Source: Tetrahymena thermophila SB210 (lineage: Eukaryota; Ciliophora; Oligohymenophorea; Hymenostomatida; Tetrahymenidae). From it: DNA of 64,000 nt. The first letter of the stretch is position 1. Every line of letters begins with the position of its first letter. The DNA is taken from positions 434,001-498,000 of the forward strand of contig NW_002476237.1 of assembly GCF_000189635.1 (NCBI RefSeq), in the 5' to 3' direction. Shown piece after piece: positions 18,742-56,027 of the stretch. Position numbers and translations under genes: made by a program. A model generated the notes under the pieces. The model was not told where the DNA came from. It ran no database searches and saw only the letters and a list, made by a program, of their open reading frames with translations.

Positions 18742-20305
18742 TTTTCAGTAGTAAATGCTAAGATAAAACCTAAACCAATTATGGGTATTTTGTACTAATG
18801 CTGACTGAATTTTGAATATGATCTTTTTGACTACTAAATAACTGCCTATGGTTGGCCTTACTTTTTTACTTTGAAATATTTATTATTATTGTTGGTAATT
18901 ATTCGATTTAATTATTTGATTTAAGATTTTCGAAAATATATATCAAATTAATTAAATGTAAAAATTCTTTGGTATTTGAATTGTTAAAAAATTTGATTTA
19001 TTTTTTGTTTGTTTGTTTTACAACTCTTCTTTCATCAAAATCCTAGAAGAAATGCAAAAAATAAATCTGAATGCCATTCATTTATAATGTTAATAAAATT
19101 AAAAACAAACCTTTTATAAGTATAATTTTACAATAAAAGGATTAAGGTAGATTAAATTAATTATTATTTTATCATAAAATCTTATTTAAAATATAAAATA
19201 TCACCTTTAAATTCTTATTAACCATGTAATCTACACTTAAATATATATATATATCAGTTAAGGTAGTTAATAAATTAAGAGTTAATCTAAATAATTATTC
19301 CCAGATGAAATATTGAGGACGCAAATAAAAACTAGCTATAACTTACACTTGTTTGAAATCAAATCCTTAATATTAAATTTTTTATAAATTCAAAAGATAA
19401 AATTATAAAATTATTGAACATTCTTTTTTAATACATTCATTTTAAAGATAATTATTTAAATTAAAATTTTATAATGTCTTAATTATATTATGTAAAAATA
19501 ATTATTTGGTAAATAAAAAGACTATCAAGTTTAAATTGAAAGATACTCTTTTAAAATTAATAATTTTGTATGGTGTGGAAAGAATTATACCAAAATTTTA
19601 ATTATTTTTATTAAAATTTTTGTAATAGAAAAGCAGTTAAAGTTCCATCATCTGCTATAAATTAAAATAAAATAAAGAGGAATAAATAGTCAAAACTTCA
19701 ATAGTTAAATTAAAGTTTACAGATCTGCACAAGAAATTGAATGTATATTCTTTTAGCAAATATTATAGATGATGGTTACAAAATGATATTTATGTATTGA
19801 CATTTATAAGAAAATATTAGCCCTTGATTAACTAATTATTTCTAAATAAAAAGGAAGAATTGAATTGGTGGAGTTTAGTTTTAAGTATAAAAATGCAGTT
19901 ATATAATAAATATACAAAGAAATTAATTGTTTAGTAAATAGAAAGAAGATCTTTTATTTCAATACATTAAATTATATGAGATTCTTAATGTTTATTTTTT
20001 AATGCTAGTCATATTAAAATATAAGATTTATTCTATAATTATTAAAAATTTTTGTCTGCTCTTGGTTTTTATTATTTTTTTATATTAATGTTTATGATGC
20101 TTTTATCCAATGAGGCACGACATATCTGTAAATATTTATCTGTAGATGGTAGGATTACTACATTATTAAATAATTTAAAATTTAAACTAATATTTTATAA
20201 ATTAGGCTTATTTTTTATTTTTAAGTATATATTTTTTTTTAACTTAATATTTTAATTTCACATACTGAGTTCGTTTTAATTAATTTTTAATTTAAATTAT
20301 CAATT
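18742..20305. other. Intergenic A/T-rich spacer
   Basis: Upstream of the coiled-coil gene and downstream of the TPR gene. It is mostly A/T homopolymers with a TTTG tract near 19002-19018 and an AT dinucleotide run near 19240. A TGA-free stretch of about 30 codons near 19640-19740 reads like weak coding sequence but has no start, partner exon or domain. Confidence 0.5.
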
Positions 20306-23300
20306 TCAATGCTTAGAATTATTTTTATCATTTATTTAAGGTAGATCACACTGGTGATTATTATTTTAATTATTTTAGTGAGTGTTTGCATTTCTATTTT
20401 ATTACTCTGTTTTGTTGTTTTAGTTGTTATTTTTGTTTTTGTTACCTCCTCCCTTTTTCTACAAGTTTTTAAGCTTATCCTCGATGTCTTTATCCAGCAT
20501 TAACTTAGCTTTCATTCTATCGATTTCTATTCTTCTGTCTTGGTCATCTTTTTTTATAATGATCAATTTTAATTGAATACTTTTAAATTAAAAAAAAAAT
20601 TATACTTTTTTCTTTTTCTTCAGTTTCTAAATCTAGATCCTCAAATACTTGTATGTTGTCAGTGAAAATTACTCCATTAGTGTTTCTTCTAATCCAAGGA
20701 GCTTCTGGCTTATTTTCAACCATATTAGGCTATATTTTACAAAATATATTTTAGATTTTTTAAATATTCATCGAATGGTATAATTACTGCTAGATTTTCT
20801 ATTAATGATGTTTAAAAGACTGGGTGTAAGCTAGGAGGCTCAATATTTGGGATATCAAAACTCAATCTCATTTTTAGATTACTTATTGAGGAGAACGGAG
20901 GAGTGAAAGTAGGGAAAATTTCACAAAATTTACCATCACCAGGGAAAATATTTAAAAGCTCAAGTTAAAGTTCATCATTAATTGGTTCTAAAAAATAATT
21001 AAAATAATTTAAATTTATTTGATAAATAAAATAAATTTTATAATACCTTATTATTAAGGCTAAGCTACTTCTTTTTCATGGAAAATTAATTTCATTAAAA
21101 CATTGAAGTAGTCTTTTGTGCTCTCTTACAATTAACTTTAGAATCTGAGACAAGTGTCATATGCATCACTAAATTTCTTCATCTATTTAAAAATATTTAT
21201 ATAAAATTAATTAAATTGAATTAAAATTATATAATTTTTACCATCAATTAAGCCATGGCAATGTTGTAATATATTTGATTTGAAGTCATGGAGTCTAATA
21301 TTGACTACTCATAATCTTCATTTAAATCTTCAGACGAAGGAACAACGAGTATGTCTGAATCGTTATTTAAAGGCTTTTTCATGTTTCTAATTTAATCTGA
21401 ATAGTCAGCCCTAGACTGTAAAGAGAGATTGAAGTCCTTTATAGCTTCTTCATAATTTCCACAATAGAAATTCAAGACACCCTTATATAGGTGCATGTCA
21501 AACTATTTAAATATTTTACCATTTATATAAGAAGCTTAAGAAAGCTTTTATAATTTTTATAACCCACTTTGAAAATTAGATAATTATATTTAAGGATCTT
21601 TTTGTTTTGGAGGATCCTCAACTGATTCATATTCAATTAAATTCTCAGTAGCTAATTACAAAGCATTTAAACATCCTCTGTCAAAAGCATAATTTCTTGA
21701 TGGATTTATTTCAATAACCTATTTAAATTACAAGAAATATTAATAACAATTAATGTTTAAATAATAAATTAAATACCTTAGAAACATCTTAGTATGCAGA
21801 GCTTATATCTTTGATAATAATGCTGCATTTAGCCCTAAGAATCAATAAGGATTCACTTGTCTCTATTTGGTCAGAATGAGAGTAAGCTCTTATTGCATCT
21901 TCATAAGCTCCACTGTTAAAAAGTAAATTACCAGCCCATTTGTGAATGTTGGGATCTGTAGGTTTAAGAGATATGTATTTTTAGAGGTCAGCAAATGCAT
22001 TATTTGATTCTCCAGCAAAGTGATAGCATTTAGCTCTTTCAAGATAAGATTCTGCATAATTTTCATCTAGCTAAATGGCTATTGAAAGATCTGATATTGC
22101 TTATTTATATTATTTGCAAATCCCAAAAGTGTGTCCACGTAAGTAGAAATACTTAGGAACATTATCTTCACTTTTTTCTATGGCTTTATCGATATCAGCT
22201 ATTCCTTCCTAGTAATATCCTAGATAGCACCTAACAATAGCTCTAAAATAAAAAAGATTAGCATTTGTATCACTAATTTCTACAGCTCTATCCATTTCTT
22301 ATAAACTATTCAAAATGCACTAGTTCTATAACTCTAAATTATCTGTATGTAACTTAAATGCCATGTTAATGAGGCTTATTCCTCTGTAGAGTGCAGGTTC
22401 CATTTTTTATTTAAATATTTTTTCAGCATTTCTAAAATGTTTTAATCCCATTTCATATTTTCCTGCCATTACAGATAATATACCATCGCAAAGAGATTTA
22501 TTATATTAAGAATTTAAATCATCTTTAAGGTTGGACTCAACAGCCATGTAGTCATAAAGAGCATTTTGGTGTTTGCCTAAGCAAAAATATCCATAAGCTC
22601 TGTATACGTAAAAGAGAGGTTTCATGAAATCACCCAAACTAAAATTTGAAGTGATTAAATTGAAATTATCTATGGCATCTTTATATTTACGTTTCATTAA
22701 AAATATAACTCCTTCAGTGAATAATCTAAACTTTTCTAACATTTTCTTGTCAGTATCTAAGTAATCTGATCTATTTAAAGTATGAAAAGCTTCATAGAAA
22801 TCTCTTTGTTCTATTTTTATTTTAGCTATTTCATACAAAGATTTTGTTACTGCTTTTTTTGAATTATTAAATTTTATAGATTGTTCAAAGCATAAACTGG
22901 CCTCATTCAAATTCTCTATATATTTTTAAAACAAACATATTATCAAAAAGTTATTTTTTTAAAAAAGCTATTAAAAATTTTATTTTTAATATCATAAAAA
23001 AAATTACTTTGTTTGTAATAAACAAGACCTTTAAAGTAATAAGCCTCAGAATTTTCTGGTTCAATTTCTAGTACCTTTATTTATTTTTTGTCAAATTAAA
23101 CTTTTGAATATTTTTTTAATGAAAATGTTACTTCGTTCAAATCTTACAATGACAAATCAAGCTATTTATTATCAATATATGTAATAGCACGCTTTAAAAG
23201 AGCTTTTGATTTTATGTAACTTTCTGTTTAAAGAGCCATGGTGTATATATCTATAGCTTCTTAGTATCTATTCATAAATTAAAGACAATCTCCTTTTCCT

Positions 23301-25339
23301 AAATAAGCTATGCCTTTCTCAGGGTGTATACTGATAGCATTATTAAAATCTTACTCTGCCTTATCCCATTTCTTTTCTTTTATAAAGAGTTTTCCTCTAT
23401 AGATGTAAGCATCATAATATTTAGGGTGGTTTTATAAAACTTTAGAAAGCTTTAATTTATATAAATGATGTTTAATTATTTATTTTAATCTCATTCATGA
23501 ATAATAATTACCATTCTTATAGCACTTGGGATATTATCTAACTTTTTAAAAGCAATTGAAATTAGGAGGTAAATATTTTTACGGTAGTTTGGATTTTTTT
23601 CCATTACAGTTAGGAATTCTTTAACTGCCCTTTCATACTCTGTTTTACCAAGGTAGCACACACCAAGCAAATAATTTAATTCTAAATTTCTATTATCTTT
23701 TTTGAGAGCTTCTTGAAAACATCTTTTGTAATAAAAAAAAAATTGAATTTAAACAAATTTATAATTTTATGTTGTTAAAATGATGAAAATTTAAGTTTAA
23801 AATTATAACTTTTTTTTTTTCCAACAATTAATTTTAATCTTAGAATAAATATAGAATTAACTGATTGTAATAAAATATTAGCATAAGCTAACCTTAATAA
23901 TAACGACATAATTGGTAAATTAATAATGAAGATTGAAATAAATAATTTTGCATTATAAATTAATATTTTTTTTACTATATCGCTTCTGAGAGGTTATTTT
24001 CTTTGAACAACTTTTATCCTTTCTCTAAAAGCATCATTGCTTCATCAGATACCAATTTTTTAGGGTTCGAAGGTGGATTGTAAGTAGAAGCTTTTGATAT
24101 TGTACGAATATGATTTTGAGTGGTGTTTAAGCCTGCATCGAATGATCTATCGTTGGCTTTTGTAGTATCGAAGTGATTAGGAAGAATTTTGTTTAAGTCA
24201 AAAGGAGCAGATTTTTCATAAAAAGATACGTTGTTAGCGTTTGTTGAATCATCGAGATTCGACATAGCTGATTCTAATCTATAATGATCATTCATCGACT
24301 TATTTAAAACACTGTTTTTTTAATAATTTTAGTTGTTTATTTGCTTATTATGAGTAGAGTGTGAAGAATTTCTTGTATGTGGGATGTGATAGTTGTTGTT
24401 GTTACTGTTGCTTTAAGGCTGTAAACTAGGTGAATATTTTGTGCTAACTGAACCAGTTGCGTGTGTATTATAATTATTTGTAGATGTATTATTTGAAGGA
24501 TTCAATGAATGGTTGTATCTGCCTCCTTTTCGATATTCAATTGTGCCATTCATTGAAGGTGTTGCTGTTCCTGAGTGAGAGGCACCTGCATTTCTACCAG
24601 ATGTAAGCCTAGGTTTATTGGCAGACTAAGGAGTATAATTTTAAATTCCTATAGTTTAAGGATAATCGCCTTATCTGGAATTTTTTTCACTGCTTATCAT
24701 AATATTCCTCAATGGGTGATTCTAGTTATTATTGCCATTTGAAGAATTTGCAGGGTTATTGTTGTGCTAAGTATTTGTATTAGAATTAGTTGAAGATCCT
24801 GCAATATTGTGATTAACTCCGTTTTGCTTACTGCTGCTATTACTATTATTTTTACTTATTTATAGATAAGCTTAACCACTTCCACTACCATTTTTGCTTA
24901 TACCTCCACTAGCTAAATATGCGTTATTGTTCATATTGTTAGCACTCATTGGCATTGTGCCTGCTACATGGTTATTCTAATTATGATTATAGCTATTAAT
25001 TGTACTATTAGGACCGCTTGGAATCTACCCTACTCCGTTTTAAATTATGTTATTAAGATGCAAATTGTTGTGATTGTTATTATTTCCTTTATGATGATAC
25101 TAATTTACTTGCTACTAATGAGGTTGTAGAGGCATATGCTGCAATTAATTATTGGGCATATTTGGATTGATGCCGTTTGGGTTGTTATTTTATCGGCGAT
25201 CATATGCATTTCTAATTAAATTAAATTTCATCTTTCTTTTTAGGTTTATAATGGCGTTGTTATCCTTTTTAGTATTGCTGGTTGGAATGCTAATATTTTC
25301 TAAGTCATTTAAGTCCTTTAAATATTTAGGGTAGTTCAT
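20306..25339 (-). CDS. Large TPR-repeat protein with disordered N-terminal region
   Basis: Start ATG at 25339-25337; the first exon (25339-23976) encodes about 454 residues of Asn/Ser/His-rich low-complexity sequence. Later exons (23722-23512, 23449-23008, 22915-21777, from 21718, and several more) encode at least a dozen tetratricopeptide-type helical pairs. Examples are LSEAIQCFQEALKKDNRN, YERAVKEFLTVMEKNP, KQAISDLSIAIQLDENYAES and YEDAIRAYSHSDQI, with the usual Gly/Ala/Pro spacing. TPR superhelices bind peptides of partner proteins, so an adaptor or co-chaperone-like role is likely; no J-domain or enzyme domain was seen. The C-terminal part has a Pro-rich block (FTPPFSSISNLKMR), a segment PWIRRNTNGVIFTDN, a charged helix (DDQDRRIEIDRMKAKL) and an Asn/Gln-rich end. 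TGA is at 20308-20306. Total length is about 1,350-1,450 residues. Confidence 0.85.
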
Positions 25340-26955: not shown

Positions 26956-29313
26956 TCAAAATTAAATGCCTCTGATAACTAATCTCTTTAATTTCATAAT
27001 TTGTTCTCTAAATCTCTTTTTCGATGACTCACTTTCTTTATTACTTCTTTTGATAATTTTTAAAATTTATTAGTGAATAGAAAAAAATTTCTTTATATTA
27101 AAAATAAGAGTTAAAAGTTTCAAAGTTAAATAATTTTTAAATAAATAAAAAAAGCTGTAATTTTAAAATTAAAAAAATTCAAAATTACAAAAAAAGTGTT
27201 GCATTTATGATAAAGAAAGAAATCAAAAAATAAATAAAATATTTTACCTGAGTTCTAATGTTAAATTTGATAGAAGAGGGCATTTAGCCAAATTAAAGCT
27301 TAAACTTTATAAACCTGTTTCACTTATCTTATTATGACTTTTAATATTAAATAAAATAGTTTTTAATGAAAAAATAAGAACTACTTTTAAATTAGTTATA
27401 TTTTGTTTAGAAAAGAAGTGAACAAGTTTTAAATAAAGCAAATTATGGAAACATAAAACATTTTAATAATAAAATAAATCATTTTTTTACTATTTTTTTT
27501 TTCTCTTGATTTTATTATTTTAATAAAACAAAAATAAATTAACTATTTTACCTGAAAAAAAATGTCAAAGTTGACATATTAGTGCACTTTACAAAAGCAG
27601 ATCCTAAGCTTGATAAATCATCATCACCAATTTCATTGCATCTATTAATTATTGTACACAAAAATGTTAGTTTCTAAATAAATTTACATTAAAAAGTTGA
27701 ATTATGAAAATATAAAAAAATAATCTTTAAATATGAAAGATGTAGTAAAAAAATAATTTTTTTTATTCTAATTTTAAATAAAAAATAAATATTACTCAAT
27801 ATTAAGTATTAAATTTTATAGAAAAGTATAATTCTCCTAAGCAGATGCCAAATTTATCATTCCAGAATCACAAATGTAGTTGTAACTTTTTATTTATTTT
27901 ATATAAATTTTTATATTTGTAAAAAAGAAAAAATTAAACATAAATAACAAATAAAAATTTTAAATCTAAAAAATAAGCAGTTAAAAATTTAATTAGAAGC
28001 TTGACAAATAGATAGCAAAATAATCAGCTTTTACCCTATTTAAAGTTCCAAATTTTAGAGTTTGGTACAACTTTTTAAAGCAGAAACTAAACTTGATGCC
28101 CCTTATGCACCTAAAAAATTGTTTCTTTATTATTTTAAATTAGTATTTGTGAGTATTATAATAATATAATTATTGAAAAAAATTGAAGAGTAAATAGAAA
28201 TGAATTTTTATAATTAAAAAAGGGATTTACATTAAGTTAAGAGACAGGTTTTTAAGAAGAATGCAGCTCGATAAAGCAGAGCCTAAATCTTATACCCCTT
28301 ACTCTAGGATTAAATTGTTTCTTTTTTAATTTAGAATAAATTAATAATTATATATTATTTAAAAAAATGAACTTTAGAAAATAAAGTATTTTAAAAGAAA
28401 AACAATTAATAAATTTAAAGAAGCGATATATCAAACTAATGTGCCAATAAATTAGAAGAGCCATTTAAATTATTTTCAAATTAATAAATTATTAAAAAAA
28501 AAGTGAGTTTGTTTTACTTGAGTTCTATAGTTAAGTCTAATAGATTAGTACATTTTGAAATTCCTAATCCTAAAACTTTAGCACCCTCTTCTTGAATATC
28601 ATTATTCCTTTTAATAAAAATATTAATTTTAATGATAAAAGAAAATAATAAGATACAAAAATAGACTAATAAAATAAATAATTCAATCCTTAGGAAATAA
28701 TAGAAAATTTAATTATTTATTCAGTAAATAAAAGGCTCAAAAGTGAATAAACAAGATAATTTTACTCTAGCAGAAGAAATAATTTTGTGATATTTGTGCA
28801 GCTTGCAATAGCAGAACTTAAGAATGTAATGTTCTAATCATTATTTTAACAACTCCTTTAACATATATTTATTAAAAATAAATTTATTATTTTATAAATT
28901 AAATAAAAGTAATATTTCAAAAATAAGTTAGATATTTTTTATTTTTTTATTAGATTATTTTAATTAATAAAATACTGAGAGGAAATATATACATATAATT
29001 TTACCTCAGTTCAAGCTTAATACTTTAGGCATTAGAGCAGTTTTATAAAGAAGAAGCTAATTTTTATAAGCTTTCTCTATCAAGTTATCTATGTCATATT
29101 TTATTTTATTTTTAATTATTGCTAAATAATAAACAAGAAAAATCAAGGCAATATTTAACTTTTTTACCTAGTTCAATTTCAAGCTATTAGTGAGTTGATA
29201 GAGATGAGTTTATAAACTATTTGCAATAAAATAAAGATTAAGTAAGGTTTTTTAGTTAAAAATAAATAAATAACTTCTTCAAGATTTGAAAATTATCTTT
29301 TCTAATTTATCAT
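26956..29313 (-). CDS. Leucine-rich-repeat protein, one repeat per exon
   Basis: RNase-inhibitor-type LRRs, each encoded by one short exon. Exons 28855-28766, 28607-28518, 28320-28231, 28124-28035, 27885-27796, 27641-27552 and 27337-27248 are each 90 nt, begin and end in phase 2, and encode one repeat of 30 residues. Examples are NEIGDDDLSSLGSAFVKCTN and EQGVQDLGSALSSC, then a LxxLxLxL strand. The exon at 29088-29005 (84 nt) is a shorter repeat. The last exon (27046-26956) encodes a basic tail ending VIRGIQF. The first exon (29313-29275, starts MINQKRQFSNLEE) and second (29216-29168) also fit. The second ends in phase 1 while the third needs phase 2, so either one base is lost or a border is misread. 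Expected about 295 residues. LRR arcs bind proteins; no other domain is visible. Confidence 0.75.
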
Positions 29314-30080
29314 TTTTTTTTTATTTTTAATGGTTCCAAAAAAAATTTTGAATCAAAATTGAAGTTAATAATCTCCAATAAAATATTAAAATAAAAAAAG
29401 ATTAATGCCAAACAAAATATATCTTAACATAATATCTATCCTTTATTTAAATAAAAGCATTTTAGATATTAATTGTATATCATATAGCATAAAAAGACAT
29501 ATTTTTTTTAATTTCAAAAATATTGATAAAATTATAATAAAAATGATAAATTTGCATTTTAAATCTTTTTAACATTGAAATACATCTATAAAATTATAAT
29601 TATTTTTTTTGTCATTCAAAATAATATTTAATGCTTTAAATTAAAATTTTAAACGTTTTGAATAATTTTTAAAGAGTTTTAGAAAAAAATAAAAATAAAC
29701 TTTTTATAATTGTAATAAAGCTAAATCAAGTAAAAATTTTCTATTTTTTTAATAAATGCATTTAAATACTTTTAAAATAGATTATATCGCCATTTTAATA
29801 TTAATAAATTTAATTATTCCTTATTGAAGTTGCTTCAATTTATTTGCAAAAAATTAAACTATTTCTATTATTCAATTAAATTTGGCTTTGATGAAAATAA
29901 TTTTATAATTTAAAATAATTGGTTATATTTTTTATAATTGCTCAAAACAAGTTTTGTATTTATCTTTACTAACTACATTTAGATTATTTATGTAAAATTG
30001 AAAAAGTAAAAAACATATAAAAATATCTTTAATTATTATTTTAATTTCTAAGAAAAATCTAAAATCTTTTAGAAGACAAA
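29314..30080. other. Divergent promoter region
   Basis: About 770 bases between the starts of the minus-strand LRR gene and the plus-strand CHCH gene; it must hold both promoters. Very A/T-rich with many T runs; no motif stands out. Confidence 0.6.
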
Positions 30081-40616: not shown

Positions 40617-43600
40617 ATGAACAAAATTATAGGAGGCTATTCGAGCAATAAAACAAATTCAACCTCTTTGCAAAGAAGTAATTCCAAGTCTAAGGACAAT
40701 ACAAGTCCTGTTAAGGGTCTCTAAGTTCCCAATTCTAATACTAACCTGAACAGTTCTAGAAAATCACCTGGTTAGATAAAACTTAATTTAAAATCTGATG
40801 AATATGCTACTCCAATCAAAGGAACTCTTCCCAATTCTACTAACTCTTAATCATAAGGCAGCTATTCAAATTTCGATGCAATTAATCAAGGTGGTAAAGA
40901 AGTCCTGTCCACCACTAAGTAAACAAAATAAATTTTATATTCTCTTTTTTAAAAAAAGTGTTGTTGGTTGAGTTTCTCTACTTTTAGTTTATTGTTAGCA
41001 AATAAAAAAAATAAAGAAAAAGTATGAAACTCAAACTCATGAGTCAAAAACTACTTTTATATATATTTATCTTTTGTTTATAAAAATTTTTAATTAAAAG
41101 CTCAACAAATAGAGGCAAAGCGTAGCTCCTTAATACTAAATCTCCTCTTAAATCTACTTCTATTGCAAGAACAGGTGTTGTTAACCTTCAAAAAGAGGGA
41201 TCTAGGACAGAGCTGAATGTTTCAAGCTATGAGAAAAAGAACCTAAGCAATACAAACATCAATATCAATATTTAGAAAGTAGATCAAGAAGGCGCAAACG
41301 AATTGACTGTAAGCTAGAAATATACTCAAGAAATCAGCGGATTTTAAGGATAAGGAGATGCAGGTTCAAATATTTTAGATATTTCATAGAATCAACTTAA
41401 GTAGAATATTTTTCTCCTTTATTTTTTCTTTTTATTACTTTCATCCTTCTACAGAAATTTAAAAACGATCAATTTGCTAGCTTGCTTCTAAAATTTAAAT
41501 TGTCCTTAAATACTTCTAAAAATATTTAATAAATTTTATATCAATTGATCCAGTAAAAAATTTTGCACTGAATCAAATTTTTTTCACAAATTAATAAATA
41601 AATAAATAAAAATAAAAAATATTGATAGCAAATTAAATTAGTTTTAAGAAATAAAATTCTGATTAATTAAATAAATAATTTTCTACCCATTATTTAATTT
41701 GATTAAGCAATTAGTTATTTTCTTAATTAAATTCAATGCAAATCTAATCAATAATAGTGTTTCAAATTTCTGATGTTTACTATTAGCAAGCATTTATCAT
41801 AATCAAATTTTGCTCACTTAATTAAATTTACATATTTTAAATAAGTCTTAAGGAAGAAAAAGATAAAAAGTCAAGCAACTAAAAGTCTCAAACAAGGTTA
41901 GATGACTCTCCTCCTTAAAATAGAAAGAATTCAATTCCTAAAAATCCTCCAGCTCTATCTCTACAATCAAACTCTTCAAATATGTCTTCTAATTATGGAT
42001 AAAAGAGAGAATCTGCAACTTTTTCTTTAGCTAAAAATATCCTAAAGAGATAAAATACTAATTAATATGGCGGTTTACAAAATAACGATAAAGTAAACTA
42101 ATCAATTGACAAAGGTTTACTGAATTTATCTATCTAATAATCAACCAAACTCAAAAATGTTTCTTCTACAGCACCTTATAATCCCGAAGTTACAGCTAAA
42201 GAAAGAGATGGTAATGTAAGAGTATATGCACGTTTTAGACCTAATAACTCAACTGAATTAGACTTGATCAATTAAGGTTTAGGATCTAATATTATTGAAT
42301 TTAATGATGAAAAATCAGTTACAACAATGTGTGATAATCAGATGTACACTTGCGATAGAATATTCAAACCTGATTCGAAATAGGTATTAATATTTTTAAA
42401 TTTATTTATCGAAAAATCAAAATAAAAATCATTAGCTATTGCAATCAATTCAAAAATTTGCAATTGTTTTCAATAGATCATTTTTAATTAAAATATATTT
42501 TAAAAATAATATTTTACAATTTTAAACTTATGTTACTCAAAATATTAATTACTTAAGCTCCAATAAATTCAAATATTTAAGTTTTGGGATTTCAATATAC
42601 TCTTAAAATTGAAATAAAATAAATTACAAAAAACAAATTTATTAATTTCAATCAAACTTAAAATTTTAGCAAAATAGAAATAAATTTAAAACAGCTAATT
42701 TTTTAAAAAATATTTAATTTATTTTAAAATTATAAAGGAATATGTTTACAATACTGTAGCAGTTGAAGTTGTAAATGACGTTTTAGCAGGTTATAATGGT
42801 ACTATATTCACCTATGGTGTTACTGGTAGTGGTAAGACTCATACCATGTTTGGTAAAATTTAAGAAGAAGAGATGGAAGGTATCATTCCTAGAATGTGTA
42901 CTTAGTTATTTGAACATGTAGAAAATGAAGAGCTTGATATTGACTACACAATTAACGTTTCTATGCTTGAAATTTACAAAGAAAATTTATATGATTCTCT
43001 TATTTAACTGAGCTCAGGAGATAAAAAGGATTTAAAAATTAAAGAACATCCTTAAAAGGGTATCATTGTTGATGTAACTAACTAAAGATTTTCATACTTT
43101 TGTAATATAAATTCAAAATTTTATTTTTTCTAGGGTTTAACTCAAAAACAAATCGCAAAAGAAGAGGAACTCTTTGGTATCATAGATTATGGTTATAACT
43201 AAAGACAAACAAGAGCTACTCGTCTTAACGAATATAGTTCTCGTTCTCACACTGTTTTCATGGTAGAAATTTAACAAAAGCTTCCAAATGGATCTGAAAA
43301 GAGTGGTAAGCTTAATCTTATTGATTTGGCAGGTAGTGAAAAAGTAAATAAATCTGGTGCTGTTGGTGAATCCTTAGAAGAAGCTATCAAAATTAATGTT
43401 TCTTTGACTTGCTTAGGTAAAGTTATCCATGCATTAACAACAGGGTAAGAGTACATTCCTTATAGAGACTCTAAATTGACTAGAATATTGCAAGAATCAT
43501 TAGGTGGTAACTATAAGGTAGTTTTTTAAATTTAAAAAATAAAAATTTCAATTTATTTCTTCATTAACAAAAAAGACATCATTAATTGTTTGCTGTTCTA

Positions 43601-46600
43601 TGCATTCAAACTTCTAGGATGATACAGTCTCAACTTTAAAGTTTGCATAAAGAGCCAAAACTATTAAAAATACCTTTAAGTAAAATATAAAGAGTTCCCC
43701 AGAATCTATGAAGCAAGCAATCGAAATACTGAAGTAAGAAGTCTTCTAAGCAAAAAATCTTTTGTAAATTTTCCACTCCAACATTGCAGATGTTAAAGAA
43801 GGCTTGTAAAGCGGTGATCCAGAAAAAATAAAATAAATTAGTAAAATATTAAAACTAATTTAAAAATAAGATTAAAATATTATTTTTATAAAATAGATAA
43901 GGCACTTGATAAGCTTTTAGAATATTAAACTGACTACAATCCTAAATAATACGAGCTAGGAGCTCTTACTGATTAAGCAGGAAGAATTTCAGCTTTAGCT
44001 TCAGGTGCTGCAAATTTAGCTGGATTTGCTGCAACAGGCAATGCAAGCATCGATATTTTAATTGCAAGAGTTAAAAATAGAGATGAAGAAATTGCTTCTT
44101 TAAAAAATAACATCGTCGATTTAGAAGAAAAGAATAAAAATTTAGAGAATGACATTTTAGAAATAAAATAATCTAACATTAAGATGGTTAGTGAGTTAAA
44201 TGACTTAAAAATTGAAAAAAATTCTATTAATGTTAAATTTAACAAAGAAGTTTCAAAGAATGATTTCTTAGTCTTCCAAATAGAAATTTTATAGAAACAA
44301 ATTCAAAATTTAGTTGATCAAGTGTGTAAATCTGAAAAGAGATGTGCAGAATATCTTTAACAGAAGAAAAAAGTTAGTAATAAATATTTTTAAAACTATT
44401 ATTAATGACAAAATATTTATAATTAATTTTATTTTCAATTAAATAGTCGATGAAAAAATTGATAACATTATGAAAGACGATTTGACTTTCGCTGAAATAA
44501 AGCTTTCTGATTATTTTAACAATAGTATCAACTTCAACTATGAGGTAAATATTTAAATTATATATAATTTATATAATATGAATTATATTTAATAAAAATA
44601 AGTTCTAAATTGATCGTAACAGTGCTTTAAATTAAGGCATTAACCTCAGCTCTTTAACAGGTAAAAAGAAATCAGCTCACTCAAGTGCTAAATAATCTAG
44701 TGACAGTGATAGCGATAGTGACAGCGACTCTGATTCTTCTTAGAGTTTTATTTCTTCTTAAGTGAATACACCTGGTAAAAATAAAGCTTCTGCAGTTCAT
44801 TCATAGAAAAAAATAGAATACTAAGGAAATAAACCTATCTTAGGAATACCTAATACATCTAGCTTCTACAGAGGATAAAATATGAATGCATAATAAAATC
44901 CTCCTTCTTCAAGAGATGATGGAATGAAAGACTCATTCTTAAACAATATAAGCTTCAACAACATTTCAAATAATCCTAATGTTGAAATGCTGAAGAGAAT
45001 TATTGAAATCCCTTAAAAGATAGATGAAGCAAGTCAAAAAGACCCAGTTTCTAAAGATTTTATGATCATAAATTTAAAGAAGGCTCTTATAAAGTAAAGA
45101 AAAATTAAAGATTAAAAAATTAATTAAATTTACAAAATTTTAACATAATAGTGCTCATATCATAAACTAGAATTTACTTAGAACAATTAGTGCTCTTGAA
45201 TGGAAATAAATTATTGAATATGGAAAATCATAGCTAAAAAGTAATGTCATGAAAATTTAAAGCAAACATATTGAAAGATTAGAATCTGTAATCGAAGAAA
45301 ATATTGGAAACTAAAAGAACTTGCGTGATAAGATGGAAGAAATAGAATTTGAATTAAATGAGTAAAAGAAAGAAATAAAAACTACAACTTCATTCAGTCG
45401 CTTAATGCCTCGTAAAAGCAGAATTATGCTACCTGTTCCAATTTAACCTAGATTCTAAAACGCTGTTTAACAAGTTTAGAAAATAGTTTAAATAGCCCCA
45501 CCTAGAAAAGATTCAATAACAAGTGAATTACAACAATCAAGAGAATAGAACCCTACAAATAGCAGCTAAATTAGAAATAACACCACAGAAAAAACAGAAG
45601 GAGATGACATGAATGAAAGTATAAATTTAATTTAATTTAATTAATTTGATTAATTATATTTTATTAACAGTTATTGACATGATTGATAAGAATGTACTTC
45701 CTTTAACTTATGAGAATGCTATTTCAGAGCTCAAGAAAAAGAACTATATTATCAAAAAATTATACCAAGAAAATTTAGATAGTAAAACACAAGTCATACC
45801 ATCAGTAATTCAAGATAGTGATAAATTAAATGCACTTTCTAGAGAAAACGAAAGACTTCGTGATAAGATTATTAGCATTTAAAATGACTTAAAAGTTGAA
45901 TAAGCTCAGACAGCCTCATATAAAAAATCTTTGCAAGTTGAAAGAAGAAACTTAAATAACCTAAGGAAGTTGAACCAAGAAATGGAGATTTCTCTAAGAA
46001 ATAATTTAAGAGAAGAGAACGAAGGCTGGTAAAGTGTGATTAATACAATCAAAGAGTAAAACGAAAAGGAAATGATTAAGAGATAGCAAGATTATAATAT
46101 TTTGAATGAAAAGCTCAATGATGTACTTGAAAAGGCTATGTATAAGTAAGAAATAGAAATTTTTATTATATTAATTATTTAAATTAATAGAGAATAATAA
46201 ATAATTAAAATATTTTTAAAAAAATGATCAATCAATCTTCTTTTAAATACAATTTATTGTTCAAACAAACTTTATCAAAAAATTCTTTAAAGTCAATTTT
46301 ATACTAACTTTTATTTTATTAAAAGACTTGGCGAAATGAAAACAAGAGGCTAAACTTGCACTGTAAGTGAAATTGAATAAGTTATTTAAGAACTCTAAAA
46401 ACAAAAAACTTCTGTAAGTGTAAATTATGAAAATAAATCAGCAAAAAGAAGAAGTTTACTTTTTACACCAGGCATGGTTCCTCCTACTTCCAATACTCCA
46501 TCATAATAATAATAATAATCATAATCATAAGGTGTTGGTGGAAATGGCATTAATCCTCATTCTCCTAAAACTTTAGCTTTACTCCAAGCATTTGCTTAAT

Positions 46601-46620
46601 AAGCTTAGTAACATTAATGA
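40617..46620 (+). CDS. Kinesin-1-like motor protein with long N-terminal extension
   Basis: Starts at ATG 40617 (exon 1 to 40918) and ends at TGA 46618-46620, in about 12-14 exons. About 310 Ser/Asn-rich residues precede the motor, which begins [11 protein letters not shown]. Motor landmarks are P-loop GVTGSGKT in [15 protein letters not shown], switch [10 protein letters not shown] and switch [10 protein letters not shown]. Then come [29 protein letters not shown] and QRAKTIKNT. These last three, together with GYNGTIF, match kinesin-1 heavy chains best. The motor hydrolyses ATP to walk on microtubules. The P-loop has Val where kinesins usually have Gln. The motor is followed by coiled coils (44030-44380, 45240-45380, 45690-46150), a Ser-Asp repeat near 44700, and a Gln-rich C-terminus. 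Total is about 1,450 residues. The N-terminal extension and low-complexity tail suggest specialised cargo or regulation. Confidence 0.9.
44695..44745 (+). repeat. Ser-Asp dipeptide repeat inside the kinesin gene
   Basis: AGTGAC/AGCGAT-type hexamers encode alternating Ser-Asp residues, a likely casein-kinase-2-type phosphorylation tract between the first and second coiled coils. Confidence 0.7.
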
Positions 46621-47818: not shown

Positions 47819-50800
47819 ATGAATTAAAAAAATCAATAAGATAAGTAGGATGATGCTTTATTAGAAAAGTAAAGAATCTAATAGGAAGAACAAGATAAAA
47901 TAGAAAAACAAAAGTTAATAGATGGACAGCTGTCTACAAAAGAGACAACCTGCTACTGCGCGTATAAATTAAATAGAATTAAAAATCATTAATCAATCAT
48001 AATTTAAAAATATAGTTAATTGGTGATTACTATCATTCTCGTTGTGGCTCTGTTTTAAGATCATAGAATTCAAGACGGATATTAAATAGTAGAAGGCCTG
48101 GACGACTTTATAGGGATTTCGTATATTGATTTTAATTTAGTTTTAATAGTTTTCAAAAATTTTTTTTAATGCTTAGGAATTTGACTGAACAATCCTTGAT
48201 GAGTTTTAATAGTCTTTTTACTAACAAAATATCAGTAGCAATAAAAAACATTTACAATTCTAAAAATAAGAATCTTACTCTAACATACAACCCTCAATAG
48301 CATAATACCTTACAAAGTATCTTAGATGCCTAGCCTAATTATCAGGAATCTTAATATAGAATTTAATTCCTGAGAACTTTCAATTTGTTTTTAGGTATGA
48401 GGATCAGAATAGACTTGCGTACAATTGATGATAATGAGTTCGTTTCAAATTTCTTCTAGGTTTTATCTTAAAATCAAATTTTATTGATTGAACCAGGAGG
48501 TTATTAAGATTAAGCAGCAAAATTATAAATTATTTTGTAGAGCAATCAAGATAATTTAATATAAACTGATAACTATATAGATATGTTTTTTACAAGTGAA
48601 TTAGATGTTGGAGTTGTTAACAATTTACTAGAGTTTATATAAGTAAATCATATAGATTATTAATACAATATTTTAATATTGATATAAATAAATAAAGATA
48701 TAACTGAGTGACATTAAAACATACTAAGTTACTATAGATGTCTTTTCTGTCAACTTAATTAGATAAATGATTGTTTAACAAACAAGAGTTTTCACTGAAA
48801 GCGATTAAGGAGCTCTAAATTATTATTAACAAGATTAAGTAGCTATTTTCCTAAATATTAAAGGGTAAAATAATTTCGTTTTAAAAGGTTGTTGTAAAAA
48901 ATGTTTTAATATATTTATAGCAATACTAGTCCTGCAAATACTCTATATGCCTCTTATCTGATTAAAATCTTTTACTTATGCTGTGTTTCACTATAGATTT
49001 TAATATCTTTTGTCCTTGTAACAAATCTATTTATTTATATAGTTTTTTATTAATTTTATTTAATGATTTAAATAGAAAGTATTAGGTATGATTGTAAACT
49101 TTATTACAACAAAAATCTTCATTTTCGATAAGTAATATTTATTTTCATTTTAAGATTCTTAAATATAGCATTTATTTATTGTTATCAATAGATTCCTCAT
49201 TATCAATTTAATCCTTTAGTCAGTTGTTGTGAGCTATTTGTCTACTTGGCTACAACTTTTCTCAACTTATAAGTAAATGCAATTAGATTCAGTCTTAATA
49301 TTAATACTTGTATTTAATAATCTAGCTCCTTAAATTAAAGCACTTTTCAAAGCTTTTCTGATTTTGACCACTATGCTAATTACATGAGTGCTTACAATGG
49401 TGATAGATTTTTTAGTATTATAGTTTTAACTATATAGACTATCGCTCTTGTATAGCTAATTAACTAAAAGATACCTTCTTTTAATATTATTTACTACTCT
49501 CTTTTGAATTCAAGTAGAGATCTCTTTTTACTCATGATAGTATTTATTATATTTGCCTTTATAATATTTAAATATATATTATTATTATTATTATTATTTA
49601 TAGTTCATTGTTATTATGCTTGTAGCTTTTTCAGTAGTTGGAACTATTATATTCAGTGCTACTTAAATCAGTTTTTATAGTGAGATCACTGGAACTCTTT
49701 TTGAGCTTTTCAAATTTGTAGAGATTTTTTCCATATTTAGCTTAAATTTATAAAATTAAAAAAAAAAAGATATTCTAATATGGTGTTCTTGAAGAATTGG
49801 TAAATATCAATACCGGAACTGGTATAGTATTTGGATTAATCTTCATATTGTTTTTCAACTTTATATTAATTCCATACCTATACTCAGTAATTATTGTAAA
49901 TTACAACTCTATAAGAGAAGCTATGTCTATTACTACTGAAGCAATAACGGCGATAGAGTCAGAAAAGCAGTTCTAATTCTTAATAAAGATTTTTAATTTG
50001 ATAACGTTTGCCTCACCTTAGTAAGTAATGCAGTAAAAGTAGAAAGATGAAGAGAAAAAAAAATAAATTAAAGAGAAAGACAAATAAAGTTTGGAAAATC
50101 TGAGTGTGCATGATAAGCAAAGTCCAGATAAAAGAATAAAAGGAGGATTTCAGTCTCATATAGATCCTAATTACAGCTATTCGGTAAATTCTCCAAGAAA
50201 AAATCGCTTAGGTAATGAAACTCCTGTCACTCCAGAAAAAGCTAAAAGTTCATTTTAGAAAAATACCAGCATGAGAGGATCTCAGATTTTTGATGACGCA
50301 CACTCCAGTACAAGCAGAAAAAATTCTAGAAGCTAAACAATGATAAATTTTGGAAAAAAAAATAATTAGATTCAAGTGCATGGCAATAGCTAAGAATATG
50401 GAAATACTTAATAGGGGCCAGAAGTTAAAATGAAGTGGAAGTAGTAGCTATAATTCAACTTTAAATAACTTGGTTTGAACGTAAACTTATTTTAATATTA
50501 TTATTATTTAACCTTTATTGAATTTTATAAAAAATAGTTTTATGGATTCATTCCTGCTAAGGTAGAAGTATAGACAAGATAATAGAGACAAGATGAAATT
50601 GTCTAAAAAATTGAATAGTTGAAATTTGAGAAAAAGAAAGAAAAGATAAGTATTCAGAAAAAGAGAGCCAAAACTGCCAGAGAAAATATAAAGCTTACTA
50701 TTATCCATATTTATTTTTTAATAGTGCTGATATTTATGGGATCTGAATAACTACTCTATGATTAGGTATTAGAAAAAAAATTATTAATTTATGAATTAAT

Positions 50801-53800
50801 TCCATTAAAACAATCTTAATTTTAATAAATAATAGTGCTACAAAATCAACAAAGCTATTGATAATTACTATAGAAACACCCAAATAACTGTATTACAGGG
50901 TCTTGTTTCATAACAGATAACATTTGACACAGTCTCTGAAATCAATCATCTTTATGCGTGGATTGAATATGTATTTTTGCCTCCTCTTACCCCTTAATTT
51001 TCTACTAACTCTTATTCTGATAGAATTGATCAGTATAATTTGATTTTTGCAGAATTTCCAGCTCGTATGACTATTAGAAGAACAGTTATGCACTAAAACT
51101 CAGACTTCTAATTTTATAATACCACAAGCAACAAAATGAATGACCTACCTCTTTATATCTAAACTGCTGGAGACATGAGTCCTAGTTCAGGCTACTCAGA
51201 TGAATATCAGTAAGATTTTTATGGTCCAATTACTTTAAATGAGTATTATTACATTCGTCCTGGACCTAAAACAACTCCATACTAAGAAGGTGGTTTTGTT
51301 TAATATTTTACAACAAAATAAACTTAGAATTACCTTTACTTACTGACCATCTACAGAGATTAAATTATAAACCATGATGTAATAAATTTTTTAACACTTT
51401 TTAGATATCTAATTAGCAAATGTAAATAAATATAAATTAGACAGGTACAGTTGTTTTAGAATGTATATTCTATAATAAGTTTGATGATCTTTACTCATAT
51501 GCAATTATAAATTTTGATATAACAACGAGTGGATACATTAACAAGAAAATTAGTGTTAATGTAAAATTTCTTTCAATAAATCCAAATTATTTAAAGCATT
51601 TTCAAACAAATTAAACAAAAGAGCTTCATTGTAGATTTATATTCAAGTGACAGGCTAACAAGGATTGTATGGGAAGTACTGTTTTTCATTTAAATTTTGA
51701 TTTACTTCTTATAGTTTAAGAGGGATTTCTCAGCAATATTCATGAATGAAGAGATGAAGGCTTTAGTAAATTTATTTAATAACCTTTTACTTTTACTTAA
51801 TTAAGTGATATATTTTAATAGACTCCTTTAGATCCTGAACTAGAAAAAAAGAATTATGTGTTATATTTGCTAAACTATCATATTGAAGAAGGAGAGTATT
51901 CTTTAGTTGGATTGGTAAAGTAGTTCTTGACAAGAACTCTTAAATTAGCTCAAAGAATTTTAATGTCGCTTTAGATTTATTGTTAGTAAACAACAGCTAA
52001 TATCTTTTTAATCCTTGGACAAATATTGGCCTTAATTGTAATCATTTTCTATCTAACATATGCATGTAATACAGACAGAATAAATTTTGATAGAAATAAA
52101 TCAGCAAACTCTTATTAGCTAATTGGCTAATTCTCAGACTTCGCCAGCTAAATGGGCAAGTATAGTGCTGTCATGAGTATACTGATGTTTGTGCAATTCA
52201 TGCGTATTTTGTTTTATTTTGGTTTCTCAGGTAAATTAGCGTTAGTTCTGGATGTTATTTCTAACGCTAATCTTGATGTGTTCTTTTTCTTAATTATCTT
52301 TTTTATTCTCCTCTCTGCATTTGGATTGATCAGTATTGTCTTGTTTGGAAGTGAAATTTCATAATTTTAAGACTTCCCTAATTGTATAATAGAATTACTA
52401 TCATGGCTGTCTGGTGTTTAATCTTTTCCCTCTGAAAACTTTTCTGCTTCAGCCACTGAATACATCTTTTATATTATTTTCTTAGTAAATATTTATTATC
52501 TTTAATGTTCATTCTAATATAATTAATTAAAAAAAAATAGATTATTATGTAGCTAATTCTATTGAGAATGTTTATTGCTATTTTGGATGGATACTTTATT
52601 CAAAAAATAAGTGACAAAGACGATGTATGAACTTTTTGATAGTATTTATACTTAATATTTTATAAAATATATTAAATAGTAAACCAAGGGTATCATAGAC
52701 TTATTGCTTGACTTACTACATACCTATTATGAATAAATTAGAAATAACTCTTAAGAAAAATAGTAAGATGAAGTAGAAGAGTAGGAAAAAACAAATAAAG
52801 GTATAGCTTTTATTAAGAAAGCAAAGGATTGTCTATGGAGGTATTTTAATAAAGGTCTTCTATTTTTCTTGCAAATTTATTTCAGCGATGAAGAGACAGA
52901 AAAGTTAGAAAAGAGGATTGGTCTTTAAACATAACAAGAAGAAGCAATAAAGCTTGAAATAAATTTCTAAGAAAATGATGAAAGTGAATAGAACATTTCA
53001 TAATAAACTATAAATGATAAGCTATTAGATTTATAAACCTATATGAAAGAAAAACACAATGACAAAGACACTTAAAAAGACATACTAGATAAAAAAGATA
53101 AAAGTAGTATAAATTTCTGGATGATGTTGCTTTCTGATTCTTTGCAAACGACTACAAATAAATAGCTAAATTTTACTGAATATGATAAGAAAGGAAACAT
53201 TCTTTATCTTAATGAATATAGATAAATTGAATACAAAATGGAAAACTATTAAAATGGTGTTCAGACCATAATTAATTTACCTGATGATGAAGAAAATATT
53301 ATGTAATCCCCAGGTAAAAATGTAAAAGATAACACTACAAAATTTTCAAGTAAAATTTCAAGAGTACAGACAAATATGATAGGAAATTAAGCTAGGAAAT
53401 CAGTTTTAATTTTAGATGAAAATGAAAAGCCATTAATAAAATATGGGAAAAAGTAAATAAAAAAAGATATTGAGTAAATGAAAAAGAGAAATAGAAATAT
53501 CCATATTGAGTATAACTAAGAATGGAGAAGCTTATTTGACAGCAAAATTATGAATGAAATTATAGAATCTCTATCAGGTAAAGTCTACCTTTATGAAGTC
53601 AAGAATAAAAAAAATAAGTAAATCAATTTATTATTATTTAACACTTTTATTAACATAAAATAAATTTGAAATATCAATCATATAATTTTTTTTTACAAAT
53701 TTAACAGCTAAGTGATAATTTATTAATTATTTAAAAGTATAAAGTTGATATATTAAAATAAATTTTTTTTTGAAAAGAATTAATAAAATGCTATAAAATT

Positions 53801-56027
53801 AAAATTGAAAAGCAAAAATAAAACATTATGTGTTTTATAAATCAAAACTACTATAAATGAAAATAATTATGAATAATCTGAATACTAATAGCAATTTATT
53901 TAATTATTGCTTAATTAATTTATTACAATTATAAACTAAGGACTTTTTAAAAATAATAAAATAGTCTGATACAACTATTCTATATCTTTAAGATTGCATT
54001 TAACAATTTAATTACTTCTAATTGAAAAATCAATTTTTTAATTCAGATCATTAACATAATTTTTATTTATTTAATTTAATAATTTAAAAAAAAATAGATT
54101 GTTTGTAGAAGAGATTAGTAATTTAATAGAAACTTGGAACTTTGATGGATTGTTAAATAGTATTTATAGAACTGCAGAATACATTATCCTTTCTAAAAGT
54201 AAAAAGAAGAATGAATTTAAATTAATAAGCCATTTATTCTATTGCCTTTTATACTTCTTCTACAATTTGAAATGCGTGTAATTTGATTAAGAGAAAAATT
54301 AAAAGATTAACATTAATAAAATTATTGATTTTGATCCTTTTGATGATGATAAAGAAATATAAGAAGCTCAATGTAAAATTGAATTTATTATTTAATATAA
54401 AATAATGTTTAAATATGATTATAGTTAATTTATCTGCTAGAGATGTAAGCACTTACTTAAATAATGTTGATTAACAGTAAGATTATGGTATCACATATCA
54501 AAACATCTAGAACACTCCATAAAACTAGAATATGTCATTTGAAATGATAAATATTTAAAAAGAACAGAAACCAGCTCATATATCTAATCCTTAGACAAGC
54601 TAATTAAAGAAAAGAGAAGGCAAAGTTGGTGTTATCATGAGTTTAAATGATGCTAATAGCAAGCATAAATTACCATAAAAAACACAAAAAGCCCTAAGCT
54701 AAATAGAATTGCTTAAAGTTTTTAAAAGATGTGAACTTCTTTTTAGTTTATGGAAACAGACATCACTATCTGATAAGTAAAAATAAAAATCCATGTTTTT
54801 TATTGAAATAAAAATTATTTATTTTTTTAAAAGGGTTCATTTATGGTTTGGTAGTGACTTTATTAATCCTTATCTCCCACATTACTTAAAATCAATCTTA
54901 TGGTAACACATATCAAACATATTTCATGTTTTTATTAGTAATATGTATTTCATATATAATCAGGCACAACTCTAACTTCTTGAAAGAAACTTTTTATCCA
55001 TTTCAAAAGCAATGTGATTTCGACCTAGATAAATTTATCTAAGGACCAGAAGTTTCGAGTTATGAAATACAAAACTTATGGTTGTATTTTGGTAATTTAT
55101 TTTTATATAATTTAAACTAAAAATTACCATAAACTAAACTAAATTAAAGATAATTATGTGCCTCCTCAAGCTCAAGGAGTTGTCAATGACGAAGAAAAAA
55201 AGGAAAAGTAGTAAAATAATTAAAAAAACGCTTCAGGTGAGGCTAATTAAAAAGACAACATAAATCAGGAAATTAAACCTTTAATTGATCTTAAAAAGAA
55301 ACTGTAAATGGAAGAAAATGGAGATTTGGATACCTTCTAAATTAATGAAATAAAAGAAATGCATTTGTTATTCATTCAAATGTTTGTTCGTGATGAAACT
55401 GATCGTGTAGGAGTACTATATAAAAAGGATACTATGCAAGAGAAATATAACTTCCTAAAGAGTTATAAAAAAGTAAAGAATGATCACAAAATGGTGATTT
55501 TCCATTTAATGACTCTCGAAGAAAAAATGAGATTAACATTTTTAAACATGGATGATGTAGTTTCTAAATTCGAAGTAATAAAATCATTTACTTACATACA
55601 ATTAATATTTAAATAATTTCTTACTCTTCAAAAGTTTTTAATGATCATTGAAGAAAGCTACGAGAGTGTCATGAATATAATTAAACTCGATAAAGATTTA
55701 AATGATGAAATGCGTTAATGGATATTTGATTTTTACTATAATTTTGCTCAGTAAGTTTTATTTTATGATTTTTCACTTCTTGATATTTTTCAATAAAAAA
55801 ATAAACAGATATAATAGTTACCATACTGCGTACAAGGTAAAAAAGCAATTTTAGGCCTATACAGAAAAATCAGAAGATGTCTTCTAGTAAAAAAATAATA
55901 GGTTATATTTAAATATTTATTTTTATTTTTTTCATATTATAGGTACATAAGAGACTTAGAGAGAACAATTATTAGGTTAGATTAGCTTATTGAAGATAAT
56001 ATTAAAATTTTAAAATAATACATTTGA
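47819..56027 (+). CDS. Double polycystin-type (PKD2-like TRPP) cation channel fusion
   Basis: Begins at ATG 47819 and ends at TGA 56025-56027. Unit 1: TM1 near 48010 (YSQLVITIILVVALF), an extracellular TOP-like domain 48180-48850 containing TIDVFSVNLIRQMI, several TM helices to 49600, then a pore region and last helix (GTGIVFGLIFILFFNFILIP) to 49975. A cytosolic, Ser-rich linker follows. Unit 2: TM1 at about 50690 (IKLTIIHIYFLIVLIFM) and a TOP domain 50850-51700 with LYAWIEYVFLPPLTPQ and TGTVVLECIFYNKF. Then TM helices (VFFFLIIFFILLSAFGLISI), pore loop LLSWLSGVQSF and last helix IIMQLILLRMFIAILDGYF to 52625. Frame is open across the linker with no TGA, and the exon at 54095 has no ATG but joins in phase to the exon ending near 53619. 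Polycystins are Ca2+-permeable channels of cilia and cell membrane. Total is about 2,200-2,400 residues. Confidence 0.75.

Follow-up and report, generated by a model that had tools for sequence, protein, structure and literature searches.

A Tetrahymena thermophila gene that appears to encode two polycystin-type channel units in one polypeptide

Polycystin-type channel units normally occur one per protein. In the Tetrahymena thermophila SB210 genome (101.0 Mb in 445 contigs), one gene appears to carry two of them in tandem. It occupies positions 47819..56027, on the forward strand, of a stretch of 64,000 nucleotides (positions 434,001 to 498,000 of contig NW_002476237.1), which is referred to here as the window and has a G+C content of 22.8%. 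TAA and TAG are read as glutamine and TGA is the sole stop codon; the gene contains 97 TAA, 38 TAG and one TGA, which is its last codon. An earlier note on this stretch had described two complete channel units in one polypeptide between these ends. A single open spliced frame does run from the ATG at 47819 to the TGA at 56027, with 22 exons encoding 2152 amino acids, and the description of two units in a single reading frame is borne out by this frame together with the two polycystin-like units found in it.

The exons lie at 47819-47961, 48016-48120, 48177-48642, 48698-48864, 48921-49017, 49192-49539, 49604-49717 and 49770-50480 (exons 1-8), 50538-50765, 50836-51378, 51441-51560, 51622-51765, 51822-52484, 52541-52624 and 52680-53617 (exons 9-15), and 54098-54372, 54425-54776, 54834-54902, 54964-55091, 55150-55750, 55809-55886 and 55943-56027 (exons 16-22). 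All 21 introns are of the GT-AG type and measure 52-70 bases, with the exceptions of one of 174 bases (49018-49191) and one of 480 bases (53618-54097). G+C was 0.08-0.20 in the 19 introns measured, compared with 0.23-0.35 in exons. The gene finder was a simple codon model. Its first training set comprised six stretches, including one of this gene (51750-52562), and its own predictions served for retraining. This crude finder put both halves in one gene ahead of the curation of the junctions, which was done by eye in the three-frame translation and partly against the helix spacing expected of a polycystin. A rerun with other intron scoring and with the gene in the training set gave the same model except for one acceptor (52553 versus 52541) and the last exons, and it contributed intron 47962-48015, which was accepted into the model. 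Between S2 and S3 of the first half, an exon reading of 49018-49131 was rejected; it lowered the PKD_channel score from 21.6 to 15.0 bits and raised that of Ion_trans from 9.7 to 16.4 bits. The 174-base intron was retained for the PKD_channel score and the helix spacing, a choice that leans on the family looked for. The least certain junction is the 480-base intron, and everything past 53617 depends on it; without it the frame would stop at the TGA at 53667-53669 and give a protein of 1640 amino acids in which both channel units are still present. With the intron, the region after the last helix (52586..53617) is followed by a probable further C-terminal tail (54098..56027), which by eye ends in a coil-like helix (DLERTIIRLDQLIEDNIKILKQYI). 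No Pfam family matched this tail, and no second copy of it was found in the genome at E values up to 0.1.

A hydropathy scan with a 19-residue window and one fixed threshold identified 13 segments. Twelve of these are strong and divide evenly between the halves, with matching spacing; the remaining one is weak and lies in the C-terminal tail. In each half, about 240 loop residues separate S1 from S2-S6. Among the controls, the mucolipin-like protein of this genome gave six segments and human PKD2 gave six plus one weak one. The models of the two nearest relatives in the genome, at the loci C184 (L030) and C282 (L031), gave 10 and 14 segments, with doubtful C-terminal parts included, and in C184 some expected helices fell below the threshold; the clean 6+6 pattern therefore has no equally clean counterpart in these two.

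Half 2 is the more easily classified. Its S1 helix (50688..50744) has the residues TAREN just before it, and the loop that follows (50745..51654) contains a polycystin (TOP) domain recognized by Pfam (PF20519, 24.7 bits, cut-off 23.6). The S2-S6 region with the pore (51655..52585) matched PKD_channel with 39.8 bits and Ion_trans with 28.0 bits, the Pfam cut-offs for these families being 22.4 and 25. In the PDB, half 2 matched PKD2 chains (best E value 1.6e-6), and an alignment of half 2 with C184 and C282 matched human PKD2 from S1 to S6 (best E value 7.9e-17). Judged by these matches, half 2 is a clear polycystin and the more canonical unit of the pair.

Six places in the genome were reported by a PKD_channel search: the studied gene, C138 (L022), C236, C127 and C244 (twice). 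The place at C236 is inside a model of 1577 amino acids with one pore-like region. We take C138 to be the mucolipin-like protein, based on its layout, and C127 and both places of C244 are presumably voltage-gated calcium channels. A search with Polycystin_dom reported two places, C184 and C282; the studied gene was not reported, probably owing to the exon-by-exon reading of the genome. C184 scored 52.3 bits with Polycystin_dom and had no PKD_channel match at E values up to 1, and C282 scored 33.5 bits with Polycystin_dom and 36.2 bits with PKD_channel. With one Polycystin_dom place each, and from gene models of their 10-kb loci, both look like single-unit polycystins; the gene finder therefore does not turn every member into a double unit. 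Where PKD2 has the residues LGD, C184 and C282 have IGC and IGY. No second copy of either half was found in the genome at E values up to 1, the exception being C420, which half 2 matched weakly (E value 0.285).

In half 1, the S1 helix (47945..48055, residues 43-61) is interrupted by intron 47962-48015 and is followed by a predicted extracellular loop (48056..48966, residues 62-309) that has the position and size of the TOP/polycystin domain. S2-S6 with the pore region are encoded at 48967..49880. The PKD_channel score was 22.3 bits, or 21.6 bits with the refined N-terminus and 23.8 bits for the S2-S6 fragment alone, and the match spans nearly the whole profile (21-225, 20-225 and 18-225 of 225, respectively). 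Ion_trans gave 15.8, 9.7 and 11.6 bits, each below the matching PKD_channel score and all below the cut-off. Two separate PKD_channel matches, as the earlier note had expected, were thus obtained, that of half 1 being at the threshold. The weak score does not disqualify half 1, because the polycystin C184 misses PKD_channel altogether. None of eight shuffles of half 1 that kept local composition matched PKD_channel (E values up to 10). A polycystin profile made from PKD2, C184, C282 and half 2 gave half 1 a whole-sequence score of 1.5 bits, compared with -9.4 for the best of 1000 local shuffles, and its best single stretch reached 8.3 bits against a local-shuffle maximum of 6.1. When its profile was compared with that of three ciliate units, half 1 gave an E value of 2.4e-4 and a probability of 43% over 73 columns, extending from the S4-S5 linker to the pore.

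We also aligned the S4-S6 core of seven sequences (PKD2, C184, C282, C236, the mucolipin-like protein, half 1 and half 2), in which half 1 aligns to the other units without large gaps. The filter glycine is present in six of the seven; in the pore helix and filter region of half 1 (49694..49823, TLFELFKFIFQYGVLEELVNINTG) a glutamine, encoded by TAA, stands in its place, with a glycine two residues later. A basic residue of S4 is Lys or Arg in five of the seven (PKD2, C236, C184, C282 and half 2), Gln in half 1 and Ile in the mucolipin-like protein. Neither half has an LGD-type selectivity filter. Half 2 keeps Gly only, without the acidic filter residue found in PKD2, and C184 and C282 are without it as well; because the latter two also lack the Asp, an LGD filter does not seem to be a requirement for ciliate members.

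The two halves are clearly different from each other, as had been claimed along with an old divergence, and their weak similarity supports this. In a six-sequence set, blastp gave an E value of 0.005 with half 2 as the query; the search started from half 1 gave 8.3 and aligned a different stretch. The corresponding phmmer values were 0.0016 and 0.4. Half 2 scored better with C282 than with half 1 (phmmer 1.6e-7). A recent internal duplication is unlikely given the low similarity between the halves. They may have arisen by an old internal duplication or by the joining of paralogues, both of which fit; supports in the seven-sequence tree were 30, 36 and 33 (30, 36 and 39 in the consensus), and 74 for C184 with C282, those at the branches deciding between the two origins being 30 and 36.

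We consider it likely, with some reservation, that this one gene encodes two covalently linked polycystin units, one divergent and the other more canonical, and that the protein forms a dimer with a single 2:2 pore. As far as the sequence can be read, there is one continuous spliced frame with 6+6 helices, two channel-profile matches and a polycystin domain in half 2. Several results weigh against this. Half 1 lies at the Pfam threshold for PKD_channel, and in an alternative splice form Ion_trans (16.4 bits) outscored PKD_channel (15.0 bits). Pieces of two of the voltage-gated-type models of the genome match PKD_channel as well, at 35 bits each, and score far higher with Ion_trans (54 and 96 bits), so the PKD_channel match of half 1 does not by itself name its family. 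When half 1 was searched against the PDB with phmmer up to an E value of 1, no polycystin was found, only entries of the bacterial sodium-channel type (0.67-0.78). Two single-exon stretches folded from single sequence gave mean predicted local distance difference test scores of 47.8 and 45.5, which are not usable. Furthermore, the Pfam search recognized a polycystin domain in half 2 only, and no relative with the same double layout was found in the genome.

The S1-S2 loop of half 1 was compared with the TOP domain in other ways. No Pfam family exceeded its cut-off in this loop, where by eye the stretch FNLFLGMRIRIDLR resembles the PKD2 stretch LLLGVPRIRQLRV. Against a four-sequence TOP profile, half 1 scored -3.1 bits, a value reached by 1301 of 1990 scored shuffles (2000 made). 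In leave-one-out runs with 500 shuffles made each, no scored shuffle reached the score of PKD2 (0 of 423), C184 (0 of 500) or C282 (0 of 492), and 331 of 484 reached that of half 2, although Pfam recognizes half 2. Since the profile fails on this recognized domain too, the test is too blunt. The earlier note had given both units a TOP-like domain; S1, a loop of the right size and S2-S6 are present in both halves, but the polycystin domain is found by Pfam in the second alone. Two equally complete units are therefore not supported, as half 1 has no detectable polycystin domain and its filter glycine and S4 basic residue are missing.

These same features could mean that half 1, within the same chain, is not a polycystin at all, being instead a mucolipin-like six-helix unit or a relative of the voltage-gated channels with an unrelated loop, which would serve as a regulator or anchor outside the pore lining. 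The lack of a polycystin domain detected by Pfam, the borderline PKD_channel score that Ion_trans overtakes in one splice variant, and the missing glycine and S4 charge all agree with this. We nevertheless consider it unlikely, as PKD_channel outscores Ion_trans in the chosen model, S4-S6 align to the other units without large gaps, and a long S1-S2 loop marks the TRPP/TRPML group, according to the portion of PMC7312350 available to us. These objections do not separate a polycystin from a mucolipin.

Whether there is one gene or two is decided in the linker between the halves (49881..50687), which comprises about 250 residues, is predicted to be cytoplasmic and is open in frame 0, with an in-frame intron of 57 bases at 50481-50537. 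The earlier note had stated that 49980-50690 is free of TGA, and the count is indeed zero in frame 0, compared with seven and nine in the other two frames. A TGA-free run of at least 485 codons, the length of the frame 49404-50861, occurred in 0.1% of 2000 simulated 3-kb sequences. G+C of the linker is 0.284, which is exon-like and does not point to an ordinary AT-rich spacer, G+C in the flanks of the gene being 0.153 and 0.145. Codon scores, from a model trained on three other genes and applied in windows of 90 bases, were above the background maximum (0.04) for frame 0 in 8 of 11 windows (49770-50759) and dipped where the 57-base intron lies. It counts against a single gene that frame 0 scored highest in only seven of the 11 windows, another frame being higher in four, and the codon score alone is not a strong argument for coding. 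The statement that the linker has no clear new start was not quite right, since the linker exon 49770-50480 contains in-frame ATG codons (MQQKQK, MRGSQ, MINFG and MKWKQ), and because of these an internal start is possible.

Two neighbouring genes of the same orientation, of which the first ends and the second begins within the linker, each encoding a single-unit channel, would agree with these ATG codons, with the mixed frame scores and with the other polycystins of the genome, which look like one unit per gene. We judge this arrangement to be improbable, as the linker frame has no TGA and no AT-rich spacer comparable to the flanks, and for a stop the first gene would require an unseen intron into another frame. 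Less probable still is that half 1 has lost its function and is decaying while it stays in frame; the loss of its filter and S4 residues and its long branch in the core tree agree with this, but its eight exons contain no stop and its splice sites and six helices are intact.

If the gene encodes a covalent pair of polycystin units, its product would be a 12-helix protein with two channel units of the TRPP/TRPML group in tandem, with both termini and the linker in the cytoplasm and the large S1-S2 loops outside. Two-pore channels work as dimers, and assembly as a dimer is reasonable here by analogy. Two copies of the protein would meet, their four units alternating around a single pore, as the halves of two-pore channels do. 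Half 1, which lacks the filter glycine and the S4 basic residue and in which no TOP domain is recognizable, may act as a built-in modifying subunit, and the loss of several channel-forming residues in it suggests a built-in half-and-half channel. The channel would probably conduct cations, either in the plasma membrane or in that of the cilia.

The proposed role of half 1 resembles that of PC1-type subunits, which change the pore of PC2-type partners, but with the ratio fixed at 2:2 instead of 1:3. PC2/PC1 tetramers are 3:1, and PC1 contributes to and alters the PC2 pore (PMC12183636); PKD2L1/PKD1L3 tetramers are also 3:1, with PKD1L3 making the filter asymmetric (PMC8357825), as described in the accessible parts of both sources. 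In these complexes, too, a divergent six-helix TRP-like unit stands beside a more canonical one. Unlike PKD1 and PKD1L3, half 1 has no extra N-terminal helices before S1 and its partner is in the same chain, and it is likened to PC1 by description, not by PC1 sequence. The gene shares with the polycystin-2/TRPP proteins (PKD2, PKD2L1 and Paramecium Pkd2) S1, the large S1-S2 loop and S2-S6, a PKD_channel match in both halves, and in half 2 the polycystin domain and the matches to PKD2 chains in the PDB; it differs from them in having two units per chain, no LGD in either half and no recognizable TOP domain in half 1. Two-pore channels have two six-helix halves per chain, according to the consulted part of PMC7312350, and a dimer is expected here as well, but the present units have large S1-S2 loops and match PKD_channel over Ion_trans in the chosen model. 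Two Ion_trans domains as best match would mark a two-pore channel, and Ion_trans reached 9.7-15.8 bits in half 1 and 28.0 bits in half 2. The oomycete PKDRR proteins are likewise protist polycystins with an unusual domain layout; they carry a ryanodine-receptor domain, and the available portion of PMC7399828 mentions no second channel unit. No report of a tandem polycystin was found in a literature search that left out protein databases and most subscription journals, so an entry under an automatic name may exist. Neither viral_contigs (272 pattern matches) nor genome_contigs (588), each scanned once with the half 2 exon, yielded a confirmed relative, which was to be expected of a ciliate gene.

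Other genes in the window include a kinesin motor gene on the forward strand (40617-46620, Pfam Kinesin 323 bits, ends from the crude finder), which ends about 1.2 kb before the polycystin gene begins. Also on the forward strand is a gene (8843-10803) encoding two HU domains of the CCDC81 type, each above the Pfam cut-off. On the reverse strand are a large TPR-repeat gene (20009-25339) and a gene model with a series of exons of about 90 bases (26956-29793), in which by eye each exon seems to hold one leucine-rich repeat.

Paramecium has two closely related Pkd2 paralogues and a more distant relative, and a Pkd1 homologue is absent according to the authors, in the part of PMC6627415 available to us. 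A possible but doubtful extension of the covalent pair is that it represents a natural concatemer of the TRP family, in which a PC1-like unit with a divergent pore and a PC2-like unit have been joined and alternate 2:2, dispensing with the separate Pkd1 partner not found in Paramecium. The Tetrahymena gene may bear on why Paramecium has Pkd2 without a Pkd1 homologue. If a single transcript is confirmed, this would be a TRPP-type channel with the two-unit layout known from two-pore channels. The debated shaping of the polycystin pore by a divergent PC1-like subunit would then be testable in a ciliated cell, on a channel whose composition the gene itself dictates.

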